Made by a program: the position numbers and the translations under genes. Source: Occultella gossypii (GTDB lineage: Bacteria > Actinomycetota > Actinomycetes > Actinomycetales > Beutenbergiaceae). Taken from it: 40,312 bases of DNA. The notes beneath the pieces were generated by a model that was not told where the DNA came from, did no database searches, and worked only from the letters and a program-made list of their open reading frames with translations. This document shows, in pieces, positions 1 to 9,217 of this stretch; position 1 is the first letter of the stretch, and every line of letters starts with the position of its first letter. The stretch lies in assembly GCF_019947135.1 (NCBI RefSeq), contig NZ_JAGSHT010000004.1:32003-72314 (forward strand), given 5' to 3'.

Positions 1-1068
1 GTCGGCGCCCGGGAGCCCATCCGCCAGGAACGAGTACGTAGCGAGGAAGTCCGCGTAGTGCTCATCGCCCCCGGTGGCCGACTCGGCCGTGGTCGTGTGC
101 ATCACGTACGGTGTCGCGGAGAGCATCAGCACCCGCGTGGTTCTCTGGAAGTCGGTGTGTTCGAAGGAGAACAGGTGGCTCGCGATGTCGGCGGCGTAGC
201 CCGCCGCGCCCGAGGTATCGCCGTGGAGGATGTCCCGGAACCGCTGGAACTCGTCGAGCACCACCATGTCCGGGCGGAGCAGATACGCGCCGGTCATCGC
301 CAGCGCCTCCCGGAGTTGACCGATCAGGCGGTTGCGTTCGTCTCGGGTGGCTCGGTCAGGTTCGGCGTCACGGGCGTACCTCGCCGCGATCCGGTGCAGT
401 ACGGTATCGAGGTCGTCCAAACCCTCGCGTGCTCGCTCCGAGTTCACCGCATCGACCTGGTTGCCGAAGATCTCCAGCGCCTCGTCCGAGAGGTCACCGC
501 TCCACTCGGCCTGATCCCGGATGCGGGCCTCCGGTGACTCGTGCCAGCCTGGGCCGATACCGCCGGCGAAGATCCGCCAGATGCCACGGCCGCGGACGCG
601 GTGACCGCCCCATAGTTGCTGCAGGGCTCGCAACACGGCGGCCCTCTCGGTCCAGATCCCTCCAGTGCTGCCCAGGTTCAGGGAAGTGCCGGGTGTCAGA
701 GCGATCAGGTTGATCGGCCGGTGCTCGCGAGCCGAGAGTTTGAAGGCCAGAAGCGGAAGCCGTTCCGTTCGGTGCTCCACGGGAACCCCGGTGGGGGCGA
801 GCTTGCGGAGGTTCTGCGCCGCGATCGCACCGTTGGAGCAGATGTAGACGATGTCGACCCGTTGATCGCCGGTGTTCTGGAGGTGCTCGATCGTCCGGGC
901 GATCACCCCACGCGCCACCATCGTCTTGCCCAAGCCAACCTCGTCTGCCACCAGGAACCGCGACGTGGCCTGCGCACCGTCGCCGAAGAGACGCCCGAAC
1001 GCGTAGTCGGCGGTGTCACGTTGGAAGGTACGCAGGCGCGAGAGTTCCTGGTCGACGTCGATCCTCAT
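1..1068 (-). CDS. Superfamily 2 DEAD/DEAH-type helicase, C-terminus cut by window edge
   Basis: The reading frame is open for 356 codons from an ATG at 1068 to the window edge; the C-terminal part, including the second RecA lobe, lies outside. Visible helicase motifs are a Walker A region DEVGLGKT (about residues 42-49), a Walker B box VVLDEFQ (269-275) and motif III LSATP (316-320), with a long insert of about 200 residues between motifs I and II. The start is fixed by an ATGA overlap with the stop of the upstream phospholipase D-like gene (1065-1068), which implies translational coupling. By family it should be an ATP-driven nucleic-acid translocase or remodeller. Its place behind a PLD-like and a DUF6361 gene suggests a defence role, which is inference. 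A SNF2-like repair helicase is the alternative. Confidence 0.9.
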   Translation of the reverse strand, partial: MRIDVDQELSRLRTFQRDTADYAFGRLFGDGAQATSRFLVADEVGLGKTMVARGVIARTIEHLQNTGDQRVDIVYICSNGAIAAQNLRKLAPTGVPVEHRTERLPLLAFKLSAREHRPINLIALTPGTSLNLGSTGGIWTERAAVLRALQQLWGGHRVRGRGIWRIFAGGIGPGWHESPEARIRDQAEWSGDLSDEALEIFGNQVDAVNSERAREGLDDLDTVLHRIAARYARDAEPDRATRDERNRLIGQLREALAMTGAYLLRPDMVVLDEFQRFRDILHGDTSGAAGYAADIASHLFSFEHTDFQRTTRVLMLSATPYVMHTTTAESATGGDEHYADFLATYSFLADGLPGAD

Positions 1069-2831
1069 CGGGCACGCTCCGCCGGCACGAGGACCGAGAT
1101 TGCGTCCCAGAGGTCGACGAGGGATTCGTCGCTCAGTTCCGGGTGGTTTCGCACCACGTCCATCAGACGCCCCACCGCTTGGAGTCGCTCGGGATACCTG
1201 ACCGCCGCCCGCAGCATCATCTCGAGCAGGGGCAGAGTCTCTAGATCGGTGCGTTGCTGCGCTCGGGAGGCACGCTCGAGTTCCTGAGCGATGCCGTCGA
1301 ATTTGTCGTGCGCCTGGTCGGCGAGCAGCATCAGCAGGTACCGCACGAGCCTCGCTGGATTGGAGATCAGGTGCGCCAGCAGGCGGTCCTCGCGGTCGTC
1401 GGGTGCGTTCACCAGGTCGCAGGCGAGCACGAACTCGCTGACCTCGCCATCGAGCCCGATGCGGACGGCGAGGAACGACGTCAGGCCGGTCAGGCCGGTG
1501 CGGCTGGTGAGCGTGAGGTCGGTCCCGCTGATCGTGCTCCACTCGGGGACCGTCACGGGACGGACCTCGAGCGTGGCAGCACCCAACGGGGGGAACGGCT
1601 CGGTCGCTGCGTAGGTGACCGAGTACCAACCATCAGATTCCGGGTCGACCGTCGCCGTCACGCGGACCTTGGCGATCGCGTCCTGGAGGTGCCGCAGCGC
1701 TTCCTCGGCCGGTGTCTGCGCCGGTACCGGTTCGGACCAGGTGTGCGGCAGCAGCATCTGGCGCAGGGTGGGTGCCTTCTCGTCCAGCCAGGTGCGGACG
1801 CCGACCTTGTAGGTGGGACCGACCATCTCCAGAAGCACCTCGGTGTTCTGACCGAACGCGGCGCCGGTGGCGTTCGCGCTGCCCGCGAACACGTGCGTCC
1901 GACTGCCGGGGACATCGTGCACGAAGACCTTCGCGTGCAGATCCGTGAGGACCTGTTCGCCGGAGTCGTCCACGAGGTTCGGGTTGATCACGAACGCCGG
2001 CGGGCGCCGCGTCTCGTCCCTGCCGTCGAATGCCCGGTCGAGTTCGTCTGCGCGAGAGACGATGCTGAGTTCCCGAGTGCTCTTCTCGACGCGACTGACG
2101 TACCCGGGGGACAGGAAGGGTGCCATCACCAGCGCGCGGTTCGAACTCTCGGGGAACGGCCAGGCGCCCGCGTCGGTGTCCCGGAACCCGATCGGGTGCA
2201 GTCGTAGCGTGTCGAAACCGGACGGGGCCCCGAACCGCGCCGCAGCGACGGACTCGGCGAGGCCTCGGAGGTTCTCGGCACGCTCCGGCGTCAGGCGGGC
2301 TGTCGAAGGCAGGTCCATCAGGTCGTGCAGGAGCTCAGCGACCTGGGGGAGTGGTTGCCCCTCGTCGGACTGTTCCAGGCAGACCATCGTGTCCCACGAG
2401 CGGTCGAAGGTGAGGTTCCGGGAGGCGACGAGCACGCGGTGCGTACGTACGCCGTCGTCCGTGGTGAACCGGATCAACCACAGCTTGGGATGGAAGGCCC
2501 CACCACGCGGCGCCGAGACAGGGACCACCGATCCTTCGAGGAACCCGAGCACGCCGGAGACGGCGTTCCTCGGTACGGCGATGCGCGCCGCGTCGGCGAA
2601 CAGGGTGATGCTGCGGGCGTGGCGACGCAGCGCCTCCAGCAGCGCCAAGGGCGTCTGTTCCTGCGCCGTCCCGGCTTCTTCCGTAGTGGCGCTCAGGGCG
2701 AATGCGGTGGGCACCGCGAGCAGTGCCGCGAGATCGAGCGTGTAGGAGGTGCCGACCGCGACGTCGAGTCGGTACCCGGCTGGTGGTGTGAGCGACTCAA
2801 GCAGGGTCACACCGGTCTCAGGACTGAGCAT
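1065..2831 (-). CDS. Phospholipase D-like (HKD) protein of the helicase module
   Basis: A 588-residue protein with two HKD-type motifs. The first is HPK at residues 114-116, followed by ASRNLT. The second is a complete HAKVFVHD (299-306), followed by GSANAT (317-322). Two such motifs in one chain form a single active site in the PLD superfamily, which includes lipases and many nucleases. There is no signal peptide or membrane segment, so a cytoplasmic nuclease is more likely than a lipase (inference). The C-terminal 200 or so residues are helical and without a recognised domain. It overlaps DUF6361 by 14 nt at its start and the helicase by 4 nt at its end, so the three are almost certainly one transcript and coupled in translation. 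The helicase-plus-PLD pairing recalls DISARM (DrmA and DrmC), but no DrmB-like or methylase gene is seen here. Confidence 0.85.
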   Translation of the reverse strand: MLSPETGVTLLESLTPPAGYRLDVAVGTSYTLDLAALLAVPTAFALSATTEEAGTAQEQTPLALLEALRRHARSITLFADAARIAVPRNAVSGVLGFLEGSVVPVSAPRGGAFHPKLWLIRFTTDDGVRTHRVLVASRNLTFDRSWDTMVCLEQSDEGQPLPQVAELLHDLMDLPSTARLTPERAENLRGLAESVAAARFGAPSGFDTLRLHPIGFRDTDAGAWPFPESSNRALVMAPFLSPGYVSRVEKSTRELSIVSRADELDRAFDGRDETRRPPAFVINPNLVDDSGEQVLTDLHAKVFVHDVPGSRTHVFAGSANATGAAFGQNTEVLLEMVGPTYKVGVRTWLDEKAPTLRQMLLPHTWSEPVPAQTPAEEALRHLQDAIAKVRVTATVDPESDGWYSVTYAATEPFPPLGAATLEVRPVTVPEWSTISGTDLTLTSRTGLTGLTSFLAVRIGLDGEVSEFVLACDLVNAPDDREDRLLAHLISNPARLVRYLLMLLADQAHDKFDGIAQELERASRAQQRTDLETLPLLEMMLRAAVRYPERLQAVGRLMDVVRNHPELSDESLVDLWDAISVLVPAERAR

Positions 2832-4077
2832 CGGTCACCTCCAAGGCTGCCACGCAGTCTCTGATGTGTGCGGAGGCGACTCCCCAACGGAAGTCCAGCC
2901 GATCCGCACCGACGAGCTCCCCGTTCCAGGCGAGCAGCGGGGAAGGATTCGTCAACCGCGCGGACGACTTCTTCAGCGTCGCTTCCCGCATTCGGATGAC
3001 ATGGCCGAGCGTCTCGTCGGTGAGGGCTTCGACCGGGTCGCGTACCGCACGGGTGGACCACGTGGTGACGAACTCTCGCATCGCGGTTCCGATCCGCGCA
3101 CCCTGGTCTGACAGCGTCTCGAACATCACCGGGAGCCGATCGAGCCAATGTTCGACGGCGTCGCTCTCGTCGTGCATCTCGTTGGTCCAGTCGGCGAGTC
3201 GAGCCTCGAGCAGGTCGCGGTTGGCTGGCGTCTCGCCGGTTCGAGCTGCTCTCGCTTCGAACAGCAGACTCAGGTAGCGCAGACGTGCGCCCTGGATGAC
3301 GAGTGAGAAGCCCCAGGCGAGGTCGACCAGGTCGCGAAGGTAGGGCGATAGGACCACCCGATCGACCTGCCAGGGATAGTCCGCCTCGGCCTGCACGGGC
3401 TCTCGTGCGATGCGGGCGAGGAGAGTGGGTTCGGCCTCGGCGTCGAGGCCGCTGGACGGAACGCGGGTCTGGGCCATCTTCGCGAGGAGGTATTCGGCCT
3501 CGTCGGCCGTCGGGAACACGGACAATGGTTCTTCGGGAAAGCCGTCCGGCGGTGTCGGCAGGGTGTCCCAGACCAGGTACGGGGTGGCCTGCCCGTCATC
3601 GGTCCGACGAGTCTGCCGGTGTTGCAGGACGACGTCGCGAGCATCCCCGCGGGTCAGGCGATCGGCGAGCCTGATCTTCCACGCCGCGGTGCCGCTCCAG
3701 TAGATCGTGGACGGCAGTTGTTGGATGTTCGCTCCGCGGTTGCGGCCGATGATGCCGACGGTTTCCAGGCTGTTGCCGGCCTTGAGCGCGTCGATCGTGG
3801 CGACCTCGGTGTCCCTGAGCCAGCGGTCGTACTGATCGCGCGAACGGGGGCCGCGGGCCGCGACGTGCTGCATCGCCCACGGCACCAGGAGGAAGTATCG
3901 AACGCGGGTGTGCAGGGTGGAAGTGCCCGGAAAGAAGAGGTTCGCGAACCCGTCCCTGATGGTGCCGATCCCGAGCGAGTCGAGCGTGGTCGGTTCCTCC
4001 AGGGCTCGGACTAGTTCGCGGGCTCGGCGGGACTGCTCGGCGTCGAACTGCAGCCAGGTGAAGGTGGATGTGCTCAT
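2818..4077 (-). CDS. DUF6361 family protein, first gene of the PLD-helicase module
   Basis: A 419-residue protein. The N-terminal segment (FTWLQF, then LGIGTIRDGFANLFFPGTST, then RVRYFLLVPW) is what I recognise from DUF6361, a family of unknown function. No catalytic motif, signal peptide or membrane helix is apparent. The frame is open further upstream, but the start is placed at ATG 4077 because the family-typical sequence begins there and a purine-rich GAGGAAGAAG ribosome site precedes it; upstream codons read as low-complexity Arg/Ser/Pro. The 274 nt between this gene and the lyase upstream (4078-4351) hold no convincing gene, and I could not pick out a clear promoter there. Its consistent position with a PLD-like protein and a helicase suggests a sensor or structural subunit, which is inference. 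Confidence 0.75.
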   Translation of the reverse strand: MSTSTFTWLQFDAEQSRRARELVRALEEPTTLDSLGIGTIRDGFANLFFPGTSTLHTRVRYFLLVPWAMQHVAARGPRSRDQYDRWLRDTEVATIDALKAGNSLETVGIIGRNRGANIQQLPSTIYWSGTAAWKIRLADRLTRGDARDVVLQHRQTRRTDDGQATPYLVWDTLPTPPDGFPEEPLSVFPTADEAEYLLAKMAQTRVPSSGLDAEAEPTLLARIAREPVQAEADYPWQVDRVVLSPYLRDLVDLAWGFSLVIQGARLRYLSLLFEARAARTGETPANRDLLEARLADWTNEMHDESDAVEHWLDRLPVMFETLSDQGARIGTAMREFVTTWSTRAVRDPVEALTDETLGHVIRMREATLKKSSARLTNPSPLLAWNGELVGADRLDFRWGVASAHIRDCVAALEVTDAQS

Positions 4078-4351: not shown

Positions 4352-7300
4352 TCACTCCAGAAGGCGCCACGGCCCGTTGGGGTTTCCCGGCTGTTCGTTC
4401 CGTGTCCACCACGTCGCCTCGTAGCGGTGCCCTTGGTGCTCCACCACGTCGCCGGCTATGAAGATCCTCGTCGACGTCCAGAGCGCGGTGCCGTCGCTCG
4501 TCGTTGCGACCTCCTGCCATGGGCCGTACGCGTCGCCCGGCTGCTGGTTCTGCGTCCACCAGGATGCCACCCACGTGCTGTCGCCGGAGGCGACCAGGTC
4601 GCCCTGTGCGTACTGCGTCCGGGCGTCCCAGGCCGGCGGCGCCGGCACGGCGTCGGATACCGCTGAGTCGCAGGACTGCTCGACGGTGAGGTTCTCGAAA
4701 GTGCTCGCCGTGGAGGCGTACAACCCGACCCCGCCGCTGCGGACCACGGTGTCCCTCGCTTCCGCGACCTCGACGCCGTTCAGGGTCGCGACGATGTGAT
4801 CGCCCTGGATCGTTGCCCCCAGTTGGACGGGACCGGTCAGAGGGTCGCTGATGGGCACCGACGCGAGCGTGACCGGACCGGACCGGTGTGCCTCGCGAAT
4901 GATGCCGAGGTACTGGCTTCCACGGCTTGTTCGGCCGAGGTGGATCCGGTACCCGTAGGAGTCCGAGGTGTCGCGCAGCGAGATGCCAGCGCTGCCGGTG
5001 TCTCCAGTGATCGTGACGGTGGCCTCCGCGACGTAGTCGCATTGCAGTGAGAAGCGCGGGGGCAGTGTCGAGCTGGCCAGCACGTGGGCCCAGCCGTCGA
5101 CGGGAGTCAGGTTCAACCGGTCCGAGGTCACGGACACCTCACCCGCGATTCCCTGCCAGTTGGCCTGATCGAGCCCCTCGCTGATCGAGATGTTGTCGAA
5201 CGTGGCCGCACGGCGATGTGTGTACGCGGCAGCCCCACCCGACGGCAGCTGGGAGTCGTCCGCGGAGATCGACGTGTCGCCGACCGTGGCGACCAATTGG
5301 CTCCCGATGGCGGACACGGTCATCGTGTACGGGTCTGCGGAACCGAGCGGCAGGGCGGACTCCGCGAGCGTTGTGGATGTCCCGTTGTAGACCTTGACGA
5401 GCTGCAGGGTCACGCCGGCCGAGGAGGTGAGGACATTGGCCCGGTAGTAGTTGCTCGAGTCGTGGTAGCGGAAGACGAGACCGGTGCGAGCGGTCCTCTG
5501 GCCACTCGTGCCAGGGGCGATCTCGGCCGTGATGATCGCGTCGTTCGGGACCTCCTGCTGCGCGGCGAACGACTGCAGGTCCGCAGTCGAGGACTGTGCC
5601 AGCGCACCGGACTCGCCGTCCGGCGCCCAGGCGCCCTCGACCGGCGTCCAGCCTTCGAGGGAGCCGTCGAAGGCATAGACGGTGCTGTCGAGACTGGCGT
5701 CGGCGAACTCCTCGGTCAGGACCGGGCTCACGGCCGAGGTCTCCTCGGTCGTGACGGTGACCTGGTCGCCGTCCCGGGTGAACGCCGCCGGGCTACCGTT
5801 CACCATCACGACGCCCGCGTCCGGAGCGTTGATGGTGATCGTTCCCGTGTACGGATCACCGATCGAGATCTGTGCCGTGGCGCCGAGCAATTCCACGCTC
5901 ACGTCGGAGACGACCCCGGAGGCGGTGAGGACGGCATCACGACCATCGAGCAACTGAGATCCCCTGGTCAGGGCGTACCTCGTGAGCTCACCGTCCTGGC
6001 TGCGCTCGAGATAGGCGGTCTCGGCGTCGGTCTCGGCTTCGCCGAACGCTCGCGTTGAGGGCACGTCTTCACGCGAGAGGTAGAAGCGCCCGACGGCGTC
6101 CGGCAGGTCGATCTGCATGGCGGTAGCCGTCGAGTGGGTTACGCCGGGCAGATCGATGCGGGTCGCCGTCGTCGCGGGCGCCGGACCGGCCGCGCCGGGG
6201 ACCACGACGGTGTCCAGCCCGGTCGCGCCGCTGGTGGACCAGTCATAGGACAGGAAGTCGACGTCCGTGAGCACCTCCTCACCCACGCTCACGGCGCCGT
6301 CGTCGTGGACGGTCGGGACGAGGTCGACGCCCTCCGGCGTCACCGGCACGAGTTGCACGCCGGCAACGGGATGGGACCCGGGCACGGTGTCGAACCCGAT
6401 CGTGGCGACGTTGGTGCTCGGGTCGACCGCGACCGGGTCACCGGGGAAGTGCCACAACTGCCGATAGTCGTGCGCCGCGGTGTCACCCGTCAGGCTGTCG
6501 GAGACCACCCAGAACCCAGGCTTGACGAAGTAGACGACCCGATCGTGGACGACCGGCTGGTAGCCGAACGCCTCACCCTGGTAGATGTCGAGGCCTTCGT
6601 TCGTCCGCCACAGCGACATGCTGCGGGTGGCGCCGGCGGCCTGCGGGACGCCGTCGACCTCGACCGTGTTGTGCGCCTCGGTCGTGTATCGCATCCATTC
6701 GTTCGTCGGCGTCGGGCTGTAGTCCCCGACTCCTGGATCGACGATCAGCGGACGACCGTACGCCGCCATCACCAGGCTGAGGTCATCCGGGTGCCGGTGC
6801 GAGCGGGTGTAACTGGAGTTCTGGTTGTTGATCAGCATGTACTGGGCGTCGGCGTCCCATCCGGAGCGCTGGACTGCGAAGCTGATCGGGAACAGCGTGG
6901 ACGGCAGCGTTGGCACGGTCCCCTCGGTCCGACCGGAGGCGACCCAGGCGAAGTCGGACCAGGAGTTGCGCTCAGCGGCCCTCCGGATCGTGCCGATACC
7001 CGCGTCGATATTCGGGGAGTCACCGATCAGGGCGGGCTCGAGATTCGGCTGCCGGGTCGCGAACAGGGAGTCCGCGATCCAGTCCGACCACCGCGGGATC
7101 GGAGCTGGAAGCGTTCGCCCGTTGGCATGCGCCACCTCGAGCAGAGTGTTGAGCAGGTCCGCGACGTACGCCTGATAGTTGAATGCCGGTTCCCGGTATA
7201 CGCCGTCGCCTTTGATGTAGGCGTGCATGAACCGCTCGACGGAGCGTACGGCGAACCACTCCCACGAATACGATGCCGAGAGTTCGGGAAGATAGATCGC

Positions 7301-8062
7301 CGTCAGGTAGATGGAGCGGGCCATCGACAGGTACCAGTTGTTTCCGACATGGCGCTGCAGTGCGTCCACGAGATGATCCGTCGTCGCGTGCACACCTATT
7401 AGGTACGCAGTGAGATCGCTCGCCTCGATGGTCGGCTCCGCCCGGAACACCGCGAATGCCGCGACGAGCTGTGACAGCCGCTTCGCGCCGGAGAGGTTGC
7501 GGTTCGTCGCCCAGGTCGGATTGTCAGCGAAGAAGTCCAGTGAGATGTCCATCCAGGCGGCCGCATAGGTCGACCGGAGCTGCGGGTCATCCTCGTTCTG
7601 GTAGGCGCGCGTCAACTTCCCCATGAACGAGAGATCGCTCATCAGGACCTGCGCGCCACCCGGGGAAGCTTCGGTCCCGCCCCAGAGGTCCTGCCAGTCG
7701 ACGTCGATCCTTTGCTCCGCGTGGTTGTAGAAGTCTCGGGTCTCGGCGCCGAACCGGAAGGTGCCCGCCGCGAGCTCATCGGCAGTAGCGTCCCCGATCC
7801 CCGACCCTGAGACCGGAAGCTCGATGCCGGTGCGGTTCGCAAAGTGCAGCTGGAGCTCATCGGCAGCCCCTGCCTCATCGCCGGCGGCGAGGTGTGCCGC
7901 TACCGGTGCGAGTTCCGGGCGGGTCAGGTCGAGCAGTTCGCCGAGATCCGACGTCTCGTCCGCGGCGGCCGGCGCCGACGGTAGGCCTGTCGCGACCATA
8001 GCCAGCGCGAGTGCCGCCGCCATTGTGTGGAACCGACGGGTCGAAGTCCTTGAGGAGATCAA
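4352..8062 (-). CDS. Secreted heparinase II/III-type polysaccharide lyase with tandem CBM5/12-like C-terminus
   Basis: A 1236-residue exported enzyme. The N-terminus has an Arg-rich region and hydrophobic core with a probable cleavage after PAAA (about residue 34). An alpha-toroid follows (about 40-380). It contains NNWYLSMAR near 241, matching the Asn charge neutraliser, and EPAFNYQAY near 291-299, matching the catalytic Tyr of heparinase-like lyases. A beta-sandwich then carries SHRHPDDLSLVMAAYGRPLIVDPG (from 421), the conserved His/Asp segment. Residues about 760-1135 look like two jelly-roll (LamG/DUF1080-like) units. The last ~95 residues hold two similar modules with GDxV, W/Y-xAxWWTxNxQPG and GPW signatures, as in CBM5/12. 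The predicted reaction is beta-elimination of a uronate-containing glycan outside the cell. The start is TTG at 8062, preceded by an AAGGA site and needed to give the basic n-region. The natural substrate cannot be read from sequence. Confidence 0.88.
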   Translation of the reverse strand: MISSRTSTRRFHTMAAALALAMVATGLPSAPAAADETSDLGELLDLTRPELAPVAAHLAAGDEAGAADELQLHFANRTGIELPVSGSGIGDATADELAAGTFRFGAETRDFYNHAEQRIDVDWQDLWGGTEASPGGAQVLMSDLSFMGKLTRAYQNEDDPQLRSTYAAAWMDISLDFFADNPTWATNRNLSGAKRLSQLVAAFAVFRAEPTIEASDLTAYLIGVHATTDHLVDALQRHVGNNWYLSMARSIYLTAIYLPELSASYSWEWFAVRSVERFMHAYIKGDGVYREPAFNYQAYVADLLNTLLEVAHANGRTLPAPIPRWSDWIADSLFATRQPNLEPALIGDSPNIDAGIGTIRRAAERNSWSDFAWVASGRTEGTVPTLPSTLFPISFAVQRSGWDADAQYMLINNQNSSYTRSHRHPDDLSLVMAAYGRPLIVDPGVGDYSPTPTNEWMRYTTEAHNTVEVDGVPQAAGATRSMSLWRTNEGLDIYQGEAFGYQPVVHDRVVYFVKPGFWVVSDSLTGDTAAHDYRQLWHFPGDPVAVDPSTNVATIGFDTVPGSHPVAGVQLVPVTPEGVDLVPTVHDDGAVSVGEEVLTDVDFLSYDWSTSGATGLDTVVVPGAAGPAPATTATRIDLPGVTHSTATAMQIDLPDAVGRFYLSREDVPSTRAFGEAETDAETAYLERSQDGELTRYALTRGSQLLDGRDAVLTASGVVSDVSVELLGATAQISIGDPYTGTITINAPDAGVVMVNGSPAAFTRDGDQVTVTTEETSAVSPVLTEEFADASLDSTVYAFDGSLEGWTPVEGAWAPDGESGALAQSSTADLQSFAAQQEVPNDAIITAEIAPGTSGQRTARTGLVFRYHDSSNYYRANVLTSSAGVTLQLVKVYNGTSTTLAESALPLGSADPYTMTVSAIGSQLVATVGDTSISADDSQLPSGGAAAYTHRRAATFDNISISEGLDQANWQGIAGEVSVTSDRLNLTPVDGWAHVLASSTLPPRFSLQCDYVAEATVTITGDTGSAGISLRDTSDSYGYRIHLGRTSRGSQYLGIIREAHRSGPVTLASVPISDPLTGPVQLGATIQGDHIVATLNGVEVAEARDTVVRSGGVGLYASTASTFENLTVEQSCDSAVSDAVPAPPAWDARTQYAQGDLVASGDSTWVASWWTQNQQPGDAYGPWQEVATTSDGTALWTSTRIFIAGDVVEHQGHRYEATWWTRNEQPGNPNGPWRLLE

Positions 8063-8212: not shown

Positions 8213-9217
8213 TCAGCGCGAGGGCGGCGCCGTGCTTGCGCGCACAATGATCTGGGGTCGCGACTCGATGACGCCGAGGGTCGTGGGCGTGCCCTCGAGC
8301 AGCGCCGCGACCTGGTCGACCGCACGAACGCCCAGTGCCCGCATCGGCAGTCGAACCGTCGTCAGCCGCGGCCTCACGATGTCAGCGATCTCGGCGTCAT
8401 GGATGCCCACCACCGAGAGCTGGCCCGGCACCTCGACCCCGTGGTCCGCCGCAGCCGCCAGCAGACCGGCGGCGGACATCACGTTATTGACGACGACACC
8501 GGTGGGGAACGTGCCACTGGATCGGATCGCAGCGAACCCGAGACTGCCCGCCTCAACGCCGAACCCGGTGAAACTGCCCGCTCGAGGTCGCCGCCGGGCC
8601 TGCTTCATCGCCGTGACATACCCGTCGTACCGCGCTGCCGAGGTCCGGCTCTCGTCGAGGCCGCCCACGAACCGCACGTCGGTGTGACCAGCCTGAAGAA
8701 GGAACTCGGTCGCCATCCGGCCGGCCATCAGATCATCGACGGCGACCCAGTGGCTGTGCGGGTCGGACTGCTGTTCCAGCAGCACCACCGGCGTCGGCCG
8801 TGCGCGCAGGTGTGCCAGCACGTCCCCGTCGATCAGACCCTCATGGCGCAGCAGGATCGCATCGATCGATCCCTGGCCGAGCAGCCGCGCGAGGAAGGGG
8901 CTGCCGGAGCGCATCCAAGCCGTGTCACCGAGCACCACGGCCCAACCGCGGGCTTCGGCCGCCTCGTAGATGCCGAGCAGCAACTCCTTGTACACGGGGT
9001 TCTCGAGCCCTTCGACGACCACCGCGATCGTGCCTGCCTGCTGCCGCCGAAGCGCCCGCGCCGCATCATTGGGCACGTACCCGACCTCGGCGATCACCGC
9101 CTCGATACGCGCCCGAGTCTGAGCGCTCATCCGGGTGTGTGTGGTCCCGTTGACCACAGCGGACACCGCAGAGGCCGAGACCTCAGCCCGGCGTGCGATC
9201 TCCTTCAGCGTGGCCAT
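8213..9217 (-). CDS. LacI-family transcriptional regulator (1)
   Basis: A 334-residue regulator of ordinary LacI length. Residues 1-55 form the DNA-binding head: a helix-turn-helix (TLKEIARRAEVSASAVSAVVN) followed by the hinge-helix region with NDAARALRRQ. From about residue 60 (TIAVVVEGLENPVYKELLLGI) the periplasmic-binding-protein-like effector domain runs to the end, with typical VDD..AGRMATEFL and VVGIHDAEIAD segments. Such proteins repress sugar-use genes and release DNA on binding a sugar or sugar phosphate. It sits between the GH78 rhamnosidase (177 nt upstream, nothing recognisable in the gap) and the lyase, and likely acts on the 8111-8128 palindrome. The effector is unknown; an unsaturated uronate oligosaccharide or rhamnose derivative would fit the context. 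Confidence 0.92.
   Translation of the reverse strand: MATLKEIARRAEVSASAVSAVVNGTTHTRMSAQTRARIEAVIAEVGYVPNDAARALRRQQAGTIAVVVEGLENPVYKELLLGIYEAAEARGWAVVLGDTAWMRSGSPFLARLLGQGSIDAILLRHEGLIDGDVLAHLRARPTPVVLLEQQSDPHSHWVAVDDLMAGRMATEFLLQAGHTDVRFVGGLDESRTSAARYDGYVTAMKQARRRPRAGSFTGFGVEAGSLGFAAIRSSGTFPTGVVVNNVMSAAGLLAAAADHGVEVPGQLSVVGIHDAEIADIVRPRLTTVRLPMRALGVRAVDQVAALLEGTPTTLGVIESRPQIIVRASTAPPSR

Follow-up and report, generated by a model that had tools for sequence, protein, structure and literature searches.

The three leftward genes at the left edge of the window analysed here (40,312 nt; positions 32003-72314 of contig C26, NZ_JAGSHT010000004.1, of the 5.84-Mb genome of Occultella gossypii) almost certainly constitute a complete and apparently intact Azaca defence operon, zacA-zacB-zacC, as judged from their sequences. 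The first gene, zacA (window 2818-4077, minus strand; PADLOC ZacA), encodes a DUF6361 protein of 419 aa (Pfam PF19888). The second, zacB (window 1065-2831, minus strand; PADLOC ZacB), encodes a double-HKD PLD-like protein of 588 aa, a predicted nuclease, and the third, zacC (PADLOC ZacC), a superfamily 2 helicase whose N-terminal part with the Walker A, DEFQ and SAT motifs occupies window 1-1068, also on the minus strand. zacA and zacB overlap by 14 nt (2818-2831), zacB and zacC by 4 nt (1065-1068). zacC starts with an ATG at window 1068 and ends at C26:29753; the 2,250 nt outside the left edge were read from the parent contig and bring the protein to 1,105 aa in total. The translations contain DEVGLGKT, DEFQ and SAT in ZacC, and HPK...SRN and HAK...GSANAT in ZacB. 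A preliminary description of this DNA had reported three leftward genes with overlaps of 14 and 4 nt, a helicase with Walker A, DEFQ and SAT motifs that continues beyond the left edge, and a PLD-like protein with two HKD motifs, and our coordinates, translations and the parent contig agree with it on all of these points.

Identification of the operon is based on PADLOC-DB, which we applied as protein models (not as PADLOC's system rule) to six proteins. ZacA matches its model with 325.2 bits (E 2.2e-97, model positions 2-394 of 396), ZacB with 480.2 bits (E 2.8e-144, positions 1-581 of 586) and ZacC with 928.4 bits (E 2.1e-279, positions 5-1016 of 1019). All constituents of Azaca were found, namely ZacA, ZacB with its HKD residues and ZacC with its helicase motifs, and the genes are adjacent, on one strand and in the order A-B-C. 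According to Pfam, DUF6361 (PF19888) in ZacA scores 161.5 bits against a cut-off of 25 and Helicase_C in ZacC 26.8 bits, above its cut-off of 23.5, while DEAD in ZacC stays at 18.9 bits, under the cut-off of 26. In ZacB, PLDc_2 reaches 23.0 bits and lies under the cut-off of 27, which makes Pfam weak evidence when taken alone, and the scan of this protein gave no other domain above cut-off.

Azaca is already a named and known system, and the locus is a sound but ordinary find. It is said to have been tested against phages in the 2022 study by Millman et al. In the passages of the literature that bear on it, Azaca is described as including a PLD-like domain, with citation of Millman et al. 2022 (PMC10952713), its ZacC is counted among the SF1/SF2 defence helicases (PMC12278908), the system is listed as one of those of unknown mechanism enriched in Actinobacteria (PMC10482375), and its mechanism is given as unknown, again with citation of Millman et al. 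2022 (PMC12926258). Our own literature searches found no paper on DUF6361, only unrelated entries among the matches listed for ZacA/ZacB/ZacC, and no title on the trio among the matches listed for PLD plus helicase. The preliminary description had proposed an anti-phage candidate of an unnamed or only computationally predicted type. The anti-phage reading holds, whereas the novelty does not: the proposed comparison with PADLOC returned no unnamed type, the trio being ZacA-ZacB-ZacC in PADLOC-DB and Azaca being named in papers.

In ZacB the residues His-114, Lys-116, Asn-139, His-299, Lys-301, Ser-318, Asn-320 and Glu-331 are invariant in 61/61 rows of an alignment (our protein plus 60 of 65 relatives, five loci with short ORFs having been dropped), and all are intact here; Asn-329 is invariant in 60 of the 61 rows. 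The aspartate of the K-x4-D pattern is present in the second HKD motif only (Asp-306), where 41/61 rows carry it. In the first motif its place is taken by Arg-121, with arginine or glutamate there in 57/61 rows. In the PLD superfamily, two HKD half-sites form one active site and cutting is metal-independent; the substrates of these enzymes may also be RNA or lipid. A profile built from 25 ZacB rows matched two chains in the PDB, in both cases at the second HKD motif: 7clg, a putative helicase (E 2.5e-8), and 2c1l, a restriction endonuclease that we take to be BfiI (E 1.8e-4). Weak matches were obtained to NucT (E 0.027) and R.NgoVII (chain 4rct, E 0.16). The single ZacB sequence gave no PDB match up to E 1. 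Among the 25 members, PLDc_2 is found at E ≤ 0.001 in 20 and RE_NgoFVII in two.

The Walker A, DEFQ, SAT, QEG and QREGR residues of ZacC are conserved in 56 to 57 of the 57 rows aligned (our protein plus 56 of 64 relatives, eight dropped) and are intact in our sequence. Among solved structures, RapA chains come closest to this helicase, with weak matches (E 0.017-0.022).

ZacA here shares 23-37% identity with the 63 other rows of its alignment (64 rows, from our protein and 63 of the 68 loci described below). Trp-8, Gly-36, Phe-49 to Thr-52, Thr-54, Thr-57, Tyr-61, Glu-91, Gly-108, Gly-111, Gly-263, Tyr-268 and Glu-365 are invariant in 64/64 rows; around residues 48-57 the constancy is in part a product of the scan, which used this peptide for selection. 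Pro-50, Gly-51, Thr-57, Tyr-61, Glu-91 and Glu-365 are also invariant in nine rows obtained from other searches. Lys-369 is at least nearly invariant. An AlphaFold2 model computed from the 64 rows is almost entirely helical, with a pLDDT of 88.3 and a pTM of 0.86; a model from nine rows has a pLDDT of 78.8. Foldseek comparison of both models with the PDB, and of the 64-row model with the viral structures of BFVD, returned no match at E ≤ 0.001 (best for the 64-row model, E 0.82 in the PDB and 0.25 in BFVD), and the ZacA profile found no PDB sequence up to E 5. Conserved residues in combination with a confident model that has no significant structural match make ZacA a direct target for mutation and structure work.

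How widely do the three genes occur together? We used six aligned ZacA proteins to scan contigs of public genomes and obtained 68 DUF6361 loci (by record title, 60 actinobacterial, four gammaproteobacterial and one each from Aminicenantes, Nitrospirae, Spirochaetes and ‘Planococcus’), a collection which relied on a single peptide pattern around FPGTST and therefore misses divergent relatives. A phmmer search with the proteins of the window recovered ZacB in 65/68 and ZacC in 64/68 loci, so that the co-occurrence of DUF6361 with PLD protein and helicase, a check set beforehand, was borne out; because the scan started from ZacA, pairs of ZacB and ZacC without ZacA are undetectable in it, and the constancy of ZacA, the search query, proves nothing. 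As for the misses, L054 and L073 reach a contig end, and L080 and L084 contain short ZacA matches only, with no partner. The order A-B-C on one strand is kept in 63/68 loci, and in 52 all three ORFs are above the length limits. Counted on ORFs that pass the length filter, with start codons chosen by script and with four outlying gaps of 492-1,221 nt among the loci, the overlap between genes A and B is seen in 54/60 loci and that between genes B and C in 48/56. Annotated records from Mesorhizobium and from Halomarina, an archaeon, likewise have DUF6361, PLD and helicase in this order. On this sequence evidence, near full-length matches to the family models together with an order, strand and overlaps that recur in many genomes, the arrangement of the trio is beyond chance.

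Within the phylum the distribution is patchy. DUF6361 is present in 8/396 genomes (our own included) and in none of 14 control genomes; among relatives it is found in 5/59 (our own included), and three other genomes of the same genus are without it. Two of the eight phylum genomes contain short pieces only, L105 (genome G204) of 261 aa and L115 (genome G133) of 88 aa. No ZacB or ZacC was seen in the stretch fetched around these two pieces, which are likely to be decayed copies. Of the 72,556 plasmid records searched, 45 carry a ZacA relative; in 38 the match covers at least 80% of the query, and 16 are typed as conjugative. A relative is also present in one of 50,697 phage records, where the match covers 31%.

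To the left of the window the same contig carries a BREX type 2 operon, PglW-PglX-PglY-PglZ-BrxD-BrxHI (C26:33-16192), and these six proteins, which are the set that makes up BREX type 2, all match PADLOC models. The PglW match spans positions 502-1396 of the 1403 in its model, the gene being cut by the contig start. In NCBIfam, PglX, PglZ and BrxD score above cut-off, PglY reaches 902 bits, under the cut-off of 1700, and for the helicase there is no BREX model. The BREX operon lies 13.6 kb from the end of zacC, with transporter-like genes (by eye) and three leftward genes in between, so that the Azaca operon does not directly adjoin other defence genes that are known. Downstream of zacC, and of a 415-aa gene discussed below, are genes for an OGG-like protein (PF21790; L002:10429-11190, minus strand) and a DUF7002 protein (PF22531; L002:9047-9697, minus strand), where L002 denotes a stretch of C26 with L002:11346 equal to C26:28345; like the 415-aa protein, neither has a PADLOC match. 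To the right of the operon, a 1,236-aa ORF (window 4352-8062, minus strand) looks by eye like a secreted polysaccharide-degrading protein, and behind it lies what appears, also by eye, to be a LacI-type regulator (window 8213-9217, minus strand). Across the window no Rfam model reached its gathering score, L002 contains no tRNA, and L002:12400-19501 contains no promoter-like site and three terminator-like sites, compared to 2.5 in shuffled sequence.

In the 68 loci plus our own, with each neighbour cluster typed from one scanned representative, Type I RM subunits account for three clusters (9, 9 and 8 of 69 loci) and a DrmD-like helicase for one (9/69). The clusters scanned show that defence neighbours are present in at least a minority of Azaca loci. 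No BREX set was found near any of the 68 loci, where the BREX proteins of our contig gave three BrxHI-helicase matches only (48-57 bits). The expectation that DUF6361 loci sit near other defence genes is met for some loci, including our own contig with its BREX type 2 operon. Among the neighbours no candidate for a fourth core gene emerged: none was found to recur as the three do, and the most frequent cluster after them reaches 9/69 loci.

DISARM, which is composed of DrmA, DrmB, DrmC, DrmD and a methylase, resembles the operon in having a PLD protein and helicases, and a reduced or divergent DISARM, with the PLD protein as DrmC and the helicase as DrmA or DrmD, would account for motif-length matches of ZacB and ZacC in PADLOC (best DrmC 16.7 bits, best DrmD 36.1 bits, DrmA 26.5 bits on ZacC residues 937-980) and in NCBIfam (DrmC 19.1 bits, DrmD 45.9 bits). 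Each of these matches, however, is concentrated on a single HKD motif or a single block of helicase motifs, and the NCBIfam cut-offs of 133 for DrmC and 610 for DrmD are far above the scores, while ZacB and ZacC reach 480 and 928 bits as Azaca proteins instead. For ZacA, none of the DISARM models gave a match at E ≤ 1. The six proteins scanned include no methylase and no DrmB, both in accordance with the preliminary description, so that the DrmA/DrmB core is lacking; on the scores we rejected DISARM membership, and we consider its reduced form to have a negligible probability. Scarcely more probable is that the genes form a housekeeping DNA-repair operon, even if a helicase and a nuclease are compatible with repair too. 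A repair role is at odds with the patchy spread within the phylum, among relatives and in the genus, with the conjugative type of 16 of the 45 plasmid records, and with the naming of the trio as defence in PADLOC and in the relevant passages of surveys (PMC10952713, PMC10482375, PMC12926258).

A further question is whether the working unit of Azaca is larger here and includes, as an accessory part, the 415-aa gene that lies 160 nt downstream of zacC outside the window (C26:28345-29592, L002:11346-12593, minus strand). No family of Pfam, NCBIfam or PHROG matches its product above cut-off or threshold, nor does any PADLOC model at E ≤ 1; the family occurs in 10/396 phylum genomes (our own included), three of these matches being weak. 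Relatives are encoded in three of the 68 public-genome Azaca loci (L023, L028 and L060) in addition to our own contig, and in L110 a relative precedes the zacA ORF by 12 nt. In L060, from Nesterenkonia natronophila, the relative is in frame with the C-terminus of ZacC in one ORF of 1,508 aa (L060:12989-17515), and in L023 an HNH nuclease ORF (PF01844; L023:9378-10004) lies between the 415-aa gene and zacA and overlaps both at its longest reading. Yet the join in L060 contains an in-frame ATG preceded by GGAGG, a possible internal start, and may represent two coupled genes. Moreover, 65 of the 68 Azaca loci are without a relative in the stretch covered, and 10/10 relatives outside Azaca (L085-L088 and L099-L104, six from genomes and four from plasmids, the three weak genome matches excluded) are without zac genes in the stretch fetched. 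Seven or eight of these ten have restriction-type or SNF2 genes nearby, none being recognised in L085 and L099: the neighbours include Type I RM-like genes (L088, L103), Mrr_cat (L102), NucS_C (L100), GmrSD (L104), an SNF2 protein (L101) and, in L086 and L087, DUF262 together with a methylase, and the relative in L085 is surrounded by genes for a relaxase and for type IV secretion. We rejected the 415-aa gene as a fourth core gene, and it looks like a defence-island gene of wider use and not a core part of Azaca; that it is an accessory part of the system in our genome we regard as unlikely.

Some smaller features accompany this family. L028:8829-10004 holds, by eye, an ORF similar to the HNH nuclease ORF and in the same place. 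DUF6308 proteins (PF19827) are encoded 39 nt past the zacC ORF in L110 (L110:12087-12764) and upstream of the 415-aa relative on the Gordonia plasmid L086 (L086:9155-9769). Could the 415-aa family be an accessory common to several restriction systems? It provides a testable lead in this direction.

Overall, we consider it probable that the locus is best explained as an intact Azaca operon with a mechanism in which a helicase guides a PLD nuclease. Within this explanation, the homology, the intact catalytic residues and the conserved synteny are observed, and from them we infer that the proteins act as a complex with DNA as the substrate. ZacC would be an SNF2/RapA-like superfamily 2 translocase that engages invading DNA and moves along it with ATP. 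ZacB, whose single chain carries two HKD half-sites, would be brought to the DNA, or released, by ZacC and might cut via a phosphohistidine intermediate with no metal ion; DNA cleavage by ZacB under the guidance of ZacC is, on sequence grounds, a reading we favour slightly. ZacA may be an adaptor or sensor that decides when ZacB and ZacC act, a role for which it is the likeliest candidate because it is first in the operon and belongs to no recognisable enzyme class, although the assignment is tentative and falls somewhat short of an even chance. As for the trigger, the operon is without a methylase, and self and non-self would therefore probably be distinguished through the structure of the DNA or the state of infection and not through a host mark. 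Against this explanation it must be held that the role of ZacA is guesswork, as it has no significant fold match in the PDB or BFVD, that the first HKD motif has no aspartate, that ZacB is below the PLDc_2 cut-off, that PLD enzymes can take RNA or lipid as substrate, and that the operon stands apart from other known defence genes. A bolder and rather doubtful extension would be that an all-helical ZacA without a solved relative gates the helicase-guided PLD nuclease, and that the 415-aa family is a portable accessory which joins not only Azaca, in one case in frame with ZacC, but also restriction loci of the Type I, Mrr-like, NucS-like and GmrSD kinds.

Compared to Azaca as modelled, the three proteins are near full model length and the genes adjacent, on the same strand and overlapping, and we found no difference in the core of this operon. 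With the PLD-type restriction enzymes ZacB has the HKD motif block in common, as seen in the profile matches to 2c1l and 4rct and in the RE_NgoFVII matches, whereas it differs from them in having separate helicase and DUF6361 partners. To our knowledge, HamA, the nuclease of Hachiman, is not a PLD enzyme. Hachiman is further set apart by consisting of two genes with no DUF6361 and by a helicase, HamB, that is described as Ski2-related in the passage on this system (PMC12278908). The likeness to our operon lies in the pairing of a nuclease (HamA) with an SF2 helicase (HamB), and Hachiman may serve as a model for the sensing of DNA structure (PMC12278908).
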